Virus record (IMG/VR): IMGVR_UViG_3300046004_000174
Location: 1-21,220 of that record
Source: a virus
DNA length: 21,220 nucleotides
Reading direction: 5' to 3' (one strand)
Position 1 is the first letter of the stretch; the number at the start of each line of letters is the position of its first letter. The notes below the pieces were generated by a model. It had not been told where the DNA came from and searched no databases. It was given only the letters and a program-made list of their open reading frames with translations. This document shows, piece after piece, positions 2,913 through 10,307 of this stretch. The position numbers and the translations under genes are program-made.

Positions 2913-2937
2913 TTTCAATACAAAGGAGATGCAAATT

Positions 2938-3441
2938 ATGGCAACAAAACGCAACCAAAAGAGGGAACTCTTAATGAAACTACATGGACACAAGTACAAA
3001 CGACACTTCACACAAGAGGGTTACTACTGTTTTTACTGTTCTGACCCTGCTGATACACTAGATCATGTGCCACCATTGTCTGCAATGGAGGTATTAAACA
3101 AAGAGAAGCGGAAAAAGGAGCAGATTCCAGCCGTTTTAGTGCCTTGTTGCAAGGAATGTAACTCCGCACTAGGTTCAAGGCAGCTGTGGACTGTTTTCGA
3201 CCGTCTAATGTACCTTGAAAGCTACTATGATGCCTACTTCAAGCGACAGAAGATGCTATGGTCTGAAGAAGAGATTGAAGAGTTGGGTTATTCCTTGAGG
3301 GAGTCTGTAAGACACCGACAGGATAAGCTTGACAGGTATCGTGACAAGATTCGAGCCATTCAGGTGAGGCAGCTCAAGCCAGAGACCTATCCTGACTACT
3401 ATGATGACGATTTAATTGATGATGAGGAGTACAAACCATGA
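2938..3441 (+). CDS. HNH endonuclease-like protein, 167 aa
   Basis: A probable HNH-fold nuclease. Visible are a zinc knuckle pair CFYC (Cys31/Cys34) and CCKECN (Cys71/Cys74), with the HNH core DHVPP at residues 42-46 and Asn75 between and after them. A long charged helical C-terminus (about 105-150) and an acidic tail follow. ATG 2938 is chosen over 2929 because AAGGAG (2923-2928) abuts 2929 but is 9 nt from 2938. Free-standing HNH enzymes in phages act as homing endonucleases, or nick or cut DNA during replication or packaging; which applies is unknown. It is coupled by an ATGA overlap to the next gene. Confidence 0.75.
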   Translation: MATKRNQKRELLMKLHGHKYKRHFTQEGYYCFYCSDPADTLDHVPPLSAMEVLNKEKRKKEQIPAVLVPCCKECNSALGSRQLWTVFDRLMYLESYYDAYFKRQKMLWSEEEIEELGYSLRESVRHRQDKLDRYRDKIRAIQVRQLKPETYPDYYDDDLIDDEEYKP

Positions 3442-8417: not shown

Positions 8418-8495
8418 GCGAGAGTAGCCCAATAGGTAGGAGGCAAGTGATTTAAAATCACTACAGTGTGGGTTCGAATCCCATCTCTCGCACCA
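8418..8495 (+). tRNA. tRNA with UAA anticodon (reads UUA, nominally Leu), short variable loop
   Basis: A complete cloverleaf can be drawn by hand: 7-bp acceptor GCGAGAG/CTCTCGC, 3-bp D stem GCC/GGC, 5-bp anticodon stem AGTGA/TCACT with loop TTTAAAA (anticodon TAA at 8453-8455), variable loop ACAGT, T stem GTGGG/CCCAT with loop TTCGAAT, discriminator A at 8492 and encoded CCA 8493-8495. The anticodon specifies leucine, and A73 agrees, but bacterial leucine tRNAs normally have a long variable arm; this one has 5 nt. It lies right after promoter P4. It probably helps decode UUA, but its aminoacylation is uncertain. Confidence 0.85.
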
Positions 8496-8646: not shown

Positions 8647-9069
8647 ATGGATAACAAACCAGTCAAGGTATCGGGTCAACTCTTTTGGGCTAACTGGATG
8701 AAAGAGTTCAACACCAAGTTCAATGAGGACAACACCAAGTACGAATGTACCGTTGGTATGCTCTCTGACAAGGCTTGTGAGGCTCTGAAGGAACTCGGTA
8801 TTGTCATCAAGAACAAGCCTGAGATGGGTAACTACATCGTCGGTAAGAGTAAGTTCTTGTTCGAGCCTGTGGACGCTGAAGGTAATCCAGTGGCTATTGA
8901 GAAGATTGGTAATGGTACTAAGGTGACAGCTCTGGTAGGTTCGTATCGTCACAAGATGAGTGCCAAGTTCGGGGCTGCTCCGTCTATCAGTAAGATCATT
9001 GTGACTGAGCTGGTGGTATACGGCGGTGGTGCTGACGCTGCCGATGATGGTGATGACGACATCCTCTGA
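8647..9069 (+). CDS. Single-stranded DNA-binding protein, T7 gp2.5-like, 140 aa
   Basis: Coats single-stranded DNA at the fork and recruits replication proteins. The sequence begins MDNKPVKVSGQLFWANWMKE and has an OB-fold-like alternation of strands. It ends in an acidic tail DAADDGDDDIL; the acidic C-terminus with a terminal hydrophobic residue is the partner-binding hallmark of phage and bacterial SSBs. Overall homology to gp2.5 is weak by eye; the call rests on the tail, the size (T7 gp2.5 is 232 aa, this one shorter) and the position between polymerase and exonuclease genes. ATG 8647 follows AAAGGAA by 9 nt. The last 17 nt overlap the HNH gene. Confidence 0.75.
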   Translation: MDNKPVKVSGQLFWANWMKEFNTKFNEDNTKYECTVGMLSDKACEALKELGIVIKNKPEMGNYIVGKSKFLFEPVDAEGNPVAIEKIGNGTKVTALVGSYRHKMSAKFGAAPSISKIIVTELVVYGGGADAADDGDDDIL

Positions 9070-9565
9070 GAAAGTCATTACTAAACGGGATGAAAAAGGA
9101 CGAGTGTTAGAGTACAAATTCCTAGTGAACGGAAAAGAAGTTCCTCAGGGACAGAAGTACTGTAATGCTTGTGCCTCTATCAAAGACATTTCATTGTTTT
9201 CTACTCATGGTGGTTCTTGTAAAGAGTGCGCTAACGCCCGAGCACGGGAATTTTATCGCAAGGCTAAACAAGATGCTGAATGGGTTAAAGAAAGGAATGA
9301 GAAGACTGCCCGTGATGGTCTTGAAAAGAAACAAAGGGCTGTGGACTATTTAGGTGGTGCTTGTCAAGACTGTGGCGGGAAGTTTCCATTGCCTGTTTAT
9401 GACTTTCATCACCTAGACCCCACGGAAAAAGAACATAACTTAGGAAATATCTTGCGTCGAAAGAATTTTTCTGAAATTGAGAAAGAACTATCAAAGTGTG
9501 TTCTTCTCTGCGCGAATTGCCATCGCATCCGTCACTTTGAAGGAGGTAAAAATGAAGTCAAATGA
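9053..9565 (+). CDS. HNH endonuclease, 170 aa
   Basis: Likely a free-standing homing-type HNH nuclease. An N-terminal zinc unit (Cys37, Cys40, Cys56, Cys59; YCNAC...CKEC) precedes a lysine-rich helix and a canonical HNH domain: CQDC (104-107), DFHHLDP (His119-His120), CVLLCANCHRIRH (Cys153, Cys156, His157, His161). The start is uncertain: ATG 9044, 9047 or 9053 all lie in the end of the SSB gene without a clear binding site, implying coupling. ATG 9053 is the one closest to the SSB stop. Its 3' end contains the perfect Shine-Dalgarno and first codons of the exonuclease, so the two genes are tightly fused in layout. Confidence 0.85.
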   Translation: MTTSSEKVITKRDEKGRVLEYKFLVNGKEVPQGQKYCNACASIKDISLFSTHGGSCKECANARAREFYRKAKQDAEWVKERNEKTARDGLEKKQRAVDYLGGACQDCGGKFPLPVYDFHHLDPTEKEHNLGNILRRKNFSEIEKELSKCVLLCANCHRIRHFEGGKNEVK

Positions 9566-10307
9566 TCCTAAGATTGCGCTAGTGGACGCTGATTTCCTTT
9601 AGCTTGTCTACCGTATTGGATTCAGTACGGAGGATGAGCCAGTCGGTATCGCTAAGGCACGATTAACGGAATGGTTAGAAGACTTTATCTATATCAATCT
9701 CAAGGCTGATCACTATCTAGCTTGGATTTCAGGTAAGTCTAACTTCCGTTATGACATTGCCAAGACAGTGCCCTACAAAGGCAACCGTAAGGATGCTGTG
9801 AAGCCTAAGCACTATGATGCCCTGCGGGAGCACTTAGTCAAGCGTCACGGTGCTATTCTGACGGTTGGTGAGGAAGCTGATGATACCGTAGCCATTGACT
9901 CCACTAAGCTCTTGGATGAGTGTTGGATTGTGCATGTGGATAAGGACTTGGATCAGCTTCAAGGATGGCACTATAACCCTGTGAAGGATGAGAGATACTA
10001 TGTCGATGAGTTTACAGCGTACAAGTCGTTTGCAACGCAACTTCTCACTGGAGATAGGACTGACAATATCCCGTGCTTGGCGGGAATTGGCCCTAAAAAG
10101 GCTGAAAAAGCTCTTAAAGACGCGAAGACTCAAGAAGAGTTATTGGAAAGAGCGTGGGCCAAGTATGAAGAACTTGGACATACGATGGAGTATTTTACAG
10201 AACAGGGTCAACTTCTATGGTTAAGACGTTATGAAGGACAAATATGGCAAGTACCAAGCAAGTTGCAATTAAGCATGGCTGGCGCAGCGGACTCGAAGAG
10301 AGAGTAG
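9552..10307 (+). CDS. 5'-3' exonuclease (FEN/T7 gp6 type) with in-frame amber at codon 17
   Basis: Removes RNA primers and degrades DNA 5'-3' in replication and recombination. ATG 9552 follows a perfect AAGGAGGT (9540-9547). The reading MKSNDPKIALVDADFL is stopped by TAG (9600-9602), then continues in the same frame LVYRIGFSTEDEP to TAG 10305-10307. Downstream motifs are all present: PYKGNRK (about 74-80), GEEADD (about 113-118), VDKDLDQL (about 134-141), and the helix-three-turn-helix GDRTDNIPCLAGIGPKKAEK (about 167-186). Family N-termini usually read DADxLVYR; here two extra codons (TAG, CTT) sit between DADFL and VYR. Without bypass or readthrough, only a 16-aa peptide or a product re-initiated at GTG 9768 that lacks the first catalytic Asp would be made. 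The 3' end overlaps endonuclease I by 64 nt. Confidence 0.8.
9597..9630 (+). promoter_or_regulatory. Candidate recoding site: CTT TAG CTT plus stem-loop
   Basis: Leu codon CTT (9597-9599) is followed by TAG (9600-9602) and an identical CTT (9603-9605). Eight nt after the TAG a stem-loop begins: CCGTATT (9611-9617), loop GGATTC, AGTACGG (9624-9630), 7 bp with one G-U. Matched take-off and landing codons around a stop recall the T4 gene 60 bypass (GGA, UAG, GGA), and a structure about 8 nt downstream is typical of readthrough signals. Function is inference. Confidence 0.45.

Follow-up and report, generated by a model that had tools for sequence, protein, structure and literature searches.

A stop codon between leucine codons in the first catalytic motif of phage exonucleases: mobile HNH cassettes as candidate minimal bypass elements

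An exonuclease gene interrupted by TAG

The window, i.e., the whole 21,220-nucleotide stretch of viral DNA that we analyzed (IMG/VR record IMGVR_UViG_3300046004_000174), carries a gene for a FEN-type 5'-3' exonuclease with a stop codon near its 5' end. The exonuclease frame starts with ATG 9552, preceded by the Shine-Dalgarno sequence AAGGAGGT at 9540-9547, and encodes MKSNDPKIALVDADFL before TAG 9600-9602 interrupts it; LVYRIGF... resumes in the same frame. A CTT codon stands on either side of the TAG, at 9597-9599 upstream and 9603-9605 downstream. Behind the stop, the frame stays open to TAG 10305-10307 and contains the exonuclease motifs. This part matched the PHROG exonuclease family phrog_107 with E=3e-56 and Pfam 5_3_exonuc with E=1.9e-8, the latter under the curated cut-off, and it belongs to the FEN/5'-3' exonuclease family. 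A preliminary description of the window had named the Shine-Dalgarno, the ATG, the TAG between CTT codons and the later in-frame FEN motifs; all were confirmed in the sequence, and the TAG-interrupted exonuclease is a real observation. It had not mentioned that the upstream open reading frame at 9053-9565 encodes an HNH endonuclease, whose cassette supplies both the TAG and the exonuclease 5' end. The features of the locus are as follows.

9053..9565, plus strand: HNH endonuclease ORF (PHROG HNH endonuclease, E=4e-29; relatives; start overlap)
9425..9602, plus strand: near-invariant block of 178 nt that ends exactly at the TAG (column variability among lineage-1 carriers)
9540..9547, plus strand: Shine-Dalgarno of the resupplied exonuclease start (sequence)
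9552..9599, plus strand: resupplied exonuclease 5' end, MKSNDPKIALVDADFL (codon choice unlike that of native relatives)
9597..9599, plus strand: proposed take-off codon CTT (Leu); CTT in 15/15 TAG carriers, CTG in phage T2S1-k141_477764, CTT in phage Phriendly
9600..9602, plus strand: in-frame TAG stop (sequence)
9603..9605, plus strand: proposed landing codon, CTT in the window (resident Leu codon; carriers have CTT, CTG or CTA)
9603..10307, plus strand: remainder of the FEN-family exonuclease, intact (PHROG and Pfam matches, dN/dS about 0.1)

We scanned IMG/VR for exonuclease relatives and considered the best 80, among which 68 uninterrupted ones were comparable. All 68 read D[AS]DFLVY[RK] without a gap, and against them the window carries an insertion of exactly 6 nt, which bears out the earlier statement that the motif is two codons too long. 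In most uninterrupted relatives among these 80 the exonuclease ATG overlaps the end of the ssb gene; in the window, a tRNA-Leu(UAA) lies directly upstream of ssb, at 8418-8495. Also among the best 80, 11 further contigs from other metagenomes share an identical right end of 72 nt including CTTTAG, followed by CTT, CTG or CTA. With the window they form lineage 1 (12 contigs), and the TAG was present in 11 of 11 HNH relatives of this lineage. Relatives that carry a sense codon at this position at the same length, named beforehand as evidence that would speak against a bypass, were sought and none was found.

The post-stop exonuclease frames are intact in all carriers and dN/dS among carriers is about 0.1, which indicates selection for exonuclease function. 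Because the cassette moves horizontally (see below), part of this purifying selection is older than its arrival. Each of six carrier contigs examined holds one exonuclease copy, and a second copy was absent from all six.

The HNH cassette and its occurrence in other phages

The HNH ORF begins at the ATG that in uninvaded relatives is the exonuclease's own (MTTSS...). Its 3' end contains the new exonuclease Shine-Dalgarno and overlaps the new exonuclease start. The TAG is the right end of a mobile cassette that consists of the HNH ORF, a new Shine-Dalgarno, a start and the first exonuclease codons. The catalytic and zinc-binding residues (HH, N, H and Cys pairs) are invariant in the HNH alignment; a Pfam search with the window HNH protein gave no match, and the Pfam HNH match of a related protein (L098) lay below the Pfam cut-off. 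Another window ORF at 2929-3441 (CFYCSDPADTLDHVPPLS...) resembles an HNH-type endonuclease by eye.

Cassette-free and cassette-bearing alleles are found at one and the same site, as horizontal movement of a homing cassette demands. Moreover, between contigs L029 and L055 dS was 0.15 for the HNH gene, far under the value of 0.81 for the exonuclease, and we conclude that the HNH is mobile and that the two genes have separate histories. In 11 lineage-1 carriers only 2 of 178 columns vary in the block at 9425-9602, compared with about 40% of columns in the 5' part of the HNH and about 30% across the exonuclease, and the block has abrupt edges on both sides. Folding found no RNA structure within it; our guess is that its near-invariance stems from conversion during homing.

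TAG occurs at the same place in three more IMG/VR contigs of two further lineages, which brings the TAG carriers to 15 IMG/VR contigs including the window. In L098 and L099, where the HNH is 47-48% and the exonuclease about 52% identical to the window's, the motif reads AIIDADIL-TAG-LVYRVGF; the stop has CTT in front of it and CTG behind it. L124 reads ALIDGDIL-TAG-LVYRIGF, and its HNH is about 47% identical to that of the window. Across the three TAG lineages the HNHs are about 44-48% identical, and all have the Shine-Dalgarno GAAGGAGG and the sequence [AT]TCCTTTAGCT; the three lineages may descend from one ancestral cassette.

Two cases with TGA were found via HNH-exonuclease adjacency and motif searches, neither of which required Leu codons. 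T2S1-k141_477764 (PQ867848.1; L118), a metagenome-assembled oyster phage of the Zobellviridae, has an HNH ORF followed by MQCLIDADIL-CTG-TGA-CTA-YEIAF, where uninterrupted Zobellviridae relatives read DADILLYEIGF (Klyazma, Asterion) or DADILAYEIGF (CVT22). Over the part of the exonuclease that was compared, identity to its nearest uninterrupted relatives reaches only 54-62%, and a search of IMG/VR for close exonuclease relatives gave weak matches only. In the cultured Vibrio phage Phriendly (MN062185.1), an HNH ORF precedes LLLDCDI-CTT-TGA-C-CTA-CGT-TAT-GAG. Its insert is exactly 7 nt relative to phage KIT05 and breaks the frame; uninterrupted KIT05 and VP506 read DCDILRYEL. Phriendly was plaque-purified and sequenced at 66.7-fold coverage; its paper is silent on exonuclease and HNH, and for the exonuclease its record has no more than a truncated hypothetical protein. 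T2S1-k141_477764 and Phriendly are probably independent cases. AAGGAGG is found in the cassettes of both, as well as in those of L098 and L124. In genome contigs, a pattern scan gave no match, and an HNH profile scan returned 73 loci, whose record titles gave no sign of a phage exonuclease context. A search with a loose DNA pattern gave chance matches only.

HNHs of the same family also lie in the same exonuclease motif of the cultured phages ECBP2, Bas93, PKM.Hi.22.6 and BUCT695. There the HNH ORF forms an in-frame fusion with the original exonuclease start, at loci L119 (2468-2911), L120 (2468-2911), L249 (1110-1337) and L266 (1480-1899), listed with ECBP2, Bas93, BUCT695 and PKM.Hi.22.6 in that order. 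At the junctions, the exonuclease codons IVDADT, LIDT or LIDA lead into the HNH body, and a second complete exonuclease start follows the HNH. From these fusions with a new start behind them, the HNH family appears to home into the DxD codons. The four phages thus share with the window the HNH family, the target motif, the fusion to the old start and the new start behind it, but they have no stop codon, and their resupplied motif is at most recoded (such as DAD to DGD in ECBP2 and Bas93). Related HNHs in L103-L110 also stand upstream of the exonuclease without a stop. In L111-L116, the gene that directly follows the related HNH ORF is another one, whose start resembles that of a ribonucleotide reductase, and the family may home elsewhere too. 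In Salinivibrio phage CW02 (L244, around 1366-1513) the exonuclease annotation is apparently too short: ahead of the annotated start, the same frame encodes DGDIILYE but offers no ATG, and the gene perhaps has a non-standard start.

Passage of the stop codon

Together these loci comprise five sequence types at the same motif, all of the form Leu(CTN)-stop-[0 or 1 nt]-Leu(CTN). Three are CTT-TAG-CTN types (lineage 1, L098/L099 and L124); fully identical flanking codons are limited to part of lineage 1 and L124. All five have CTN on both sides as matched take-off and landing codons and a stop, TAG or TGA, directly after the take-off codon, with one extra nucleotide in the gap of Phriendly. In all five, a Leu-to-Leu hop across the stop gives exactly the motif length of the uninterrupted relatives. 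As a random pre-stop codon is CTN in 1/16 of cases, three independent origins correspond to a chance of about 2 in 10,000. When E. coli Pol I, Taq and a further bacterial Pol I were aligned, the distance between the first Asp and the Arg proved unchanged; a motif longer by two residues would thus depart from a spacing kept throughout the family.

The preliminary description had proposed a 6-nt hop akin to that of T4 gene 60. This proposal stands as the best reading and is strengthened by CTG-TGA-CTA, by the out-of-frame CTT-TGA-C-CTA and by the link to the HNH; readthrough and +1 frameshifting, discussed below, stand beside it as alternatives. An HNH homing cassette would target the codons for the first catalytic motif (DxDxL) in the gene of the phage FEN-type 5'-3' exonuclease. 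On insertion there it would supply an exonuclease 5' end of its own, equipped with ATG and a strong Shine-Dalgarno, and add a 6- or 7-nt insert including a stop codon beside the Leu codon of the motif. Each cassette may resupply a 5' end that its own nuclease cannot cut, be it via recoding or via a short insert, and the insert probably stops the endonuclease from re-cutting the gene. Inside a motif intolerant of extra residues, a codon plus stop would be an insert that translation can drop: with the stop in the A site, peptidyl-tRNA-Leu would leave the pre-stop Leu codon and re-pair with the Leu codon just past the stop, over a gap of 3 nt, or 4 nt in Phriendly. The predicted product is the exact canonical motif (DADFLVYR, DADILLYE or DCDILRYE). 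That the hop occurs, at whatever efficiency, and that the insert blocks cleavage is what we infer from this arrangement. We hold a homing cassette with an anti-recutting insert of 6-7 nt, dropped in translation by a stop-hop, to be somewhat more probable than all else.

In several carriers the hop would start on CTT and end on CTG or CTA, a difference in the wobble position that calls for a permissive tRNA-Leu. Folding revealed no RNA structure around the stop that is common to the cases, and uninterrupted L003 folded best. A nascent peptide like that of gene 60 is absent, with only 11-22 residues before the stop. Hence neither stem-loops nor a nascent-peptide signal accompany these sites, no stimulator is evident and the efficiency could be low, which the strong Shine-Dalgarno sequences of the cassettes may offset. 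A pairing of the Shine-Dalgarno with UCCUU is visible by eye in the TAG types and L118 but was unsupported by the folds.

The main rival is that the stop is read through in the in-frame cases by a near-cognate or suppressor tRNA and passed in Phriendly by an RF2-like +1 frameshift at CUU-UGA-C, with products two residues longer (x-Leu or Asp-Leu) that still work. We regard this as possible, though clearly the less likely course. In E. coli, UAG or UGA terminates weakly when C follows, RF2 uses CUU UGA C as its shift site, and here too strong Shine-Dalgarno sequences could make up for low efficiency. But two different mechanisms would be required, as readthrough is impossible in Phriendly and +1 frameshifting in the other types, whereas a hop would be one event covering all five. 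None of the 68 uninterrupted relatives has the added length, nor does it occur in the alignments of the Pol I family, and neither mechanism gives a reason for CTN around every stop. No suppressor tRNA was found in six carrier contigs or the window, where TAG serves as stop elsewhere, including at the end of the exonuclease gene. The tRNA-Leu(UAA) is equally present in non-carriers and missing from the L098, L099 and L124 contigs, and was rejected as a helper. An amber-recoded genome was dismissed as well, since TAG ends 2/28 likely window genes and a tRNA with anticodon CUA is lacking, as was a group I or II intron, for which the region gave no Rfam match besides a tRNA-Leu. Some supposed natural readthrough may itself be stop-hopping (PMC5009743), and without peptides the two are hard to distinguish.

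The cassette might instead be a selfish element that inactivates the exonuclease, leaving a 16-residue stub, while the phage uses a host 5' nuclease activity. Homing endonucleases can be costly and this cassette spreads horizontally, but we consider inactivation improbable: no carrier shows decay behind the stop, as the low dN/dS attests, and the stop, matched Leu codons, strong Shine-Dalgarno and resupplied start have been kept in three TAG lineages whose HNHs have diverged so widely. Phriendly forms plaques, and a dead gene has no need for a resupplied 5' end equipped with a Shine-Dalgarno. A private null allele, as considered in the preliminary description, is effectively excluded by the other TAG carriers. 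Production of the downstream part as a truncated protein from an internal start, alone or with the 16-residue peptide, is very unlikely. Annotators did choose such starts in T2S1-k141_477764 and Phriendly, but the next start in the window, GTG 9768, loses the first catalytic Asp and about 55 more residues, the positions of such starts are not conserved among carriers, and the region lost is conserved like the remainder. Sequencing or assembly error, also raised earlier, found no support and is already refuted by the 15 IMG/VR contigs from different metagenomes and by the coverage of the cultured phage.

Comparison with known bypass systems

Stop-hops have been described in synthetic E. coli constructs, where 9 nt encode one amino acid (Weiss, Dunn, Atkins, Gesteland 1987, as related in PMC5009743). 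The exonuclease cases share with them the codon-stop-codon arrangement with matched codons around the stop; in contrast to these reporters, they are natural, lie in a presumably needed gene and are part of a mobile cassette. A 2016 review states that in-frame stop hopping is not known to occur in nature (PMC5009743), and in the literature that we searched, with incomplete coverage, no later report of a natural stop-hop was found. In Magnusiomyces capitatus mitochondria, short inserts called byps are corrected by bypassing in 81 instances (PMC5009743). Unlike the exonuclease inserts, byps are mitochondrial and place an unused codon, not a stop, in the A site. Their inserts are longer, and the element is not known to contain an endonuclease. 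The +1 site of prfB (RF2), CUU UGA C, recurs as CTT TGA C in the Phriendly insert; a prfB-type shift would add Asp-Leu there, is inapplicable to the in-frame TAG cases, and an internal Shine-Dalgarno at the prfB distance is lacking.

The sequences leave an even chance that minimal bypass elements, each a codon plus stop of 6-7 nt, arose in a family of mobile HNH cassettes on three or more occasions (CTT-TAG, CTG-TGA and the 7-nt CTT-TGA), every time within the catalytic motif of a phage FEN exonuclease. Stop-hops would then be known from nature for the first time, no natural bypass would be smaller, and the elements would confer immunity against the cassette's own nuclease. If so, elaborate signals are not required for ribosomes to skip a stop reliably, the association of bypass elements with homing endonucleases becomes general, and some phage 'pseudogenes' and truncated gene calls are translated whole. 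As one case lies in a cultured phage (Phriendly) whose host, Vibrio natriegens, is a laboratory organism, the hop is directly testable.

Bypassing in bacteria and phages is almost a single case, T4 gene 60, which has a 50-nt gap and adjoins an HNH homing endonuclease (mobE/mobA), and whose insert is thought to protect against the nuclease (PMC5009743, PMC3014915, PMC11194080). The cassettes described here resemble it in the stop directly after the take-off codon, the matched landing codon, the gene for a replication enzyme and the HNH neighbour. They differ from it in that the gap spans 3-4 nt, where gene 60 leaves 50 nt of mRNA untranslated, that the codons are Leu and not Gly, and that the stop comes 11-22 codons past the start, with no long nascent-peptide signal and no conserved stem-loop. 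Moreover, unlike gene 60, they recur in several phage groups, each as one contiguous cassette within its target gene.
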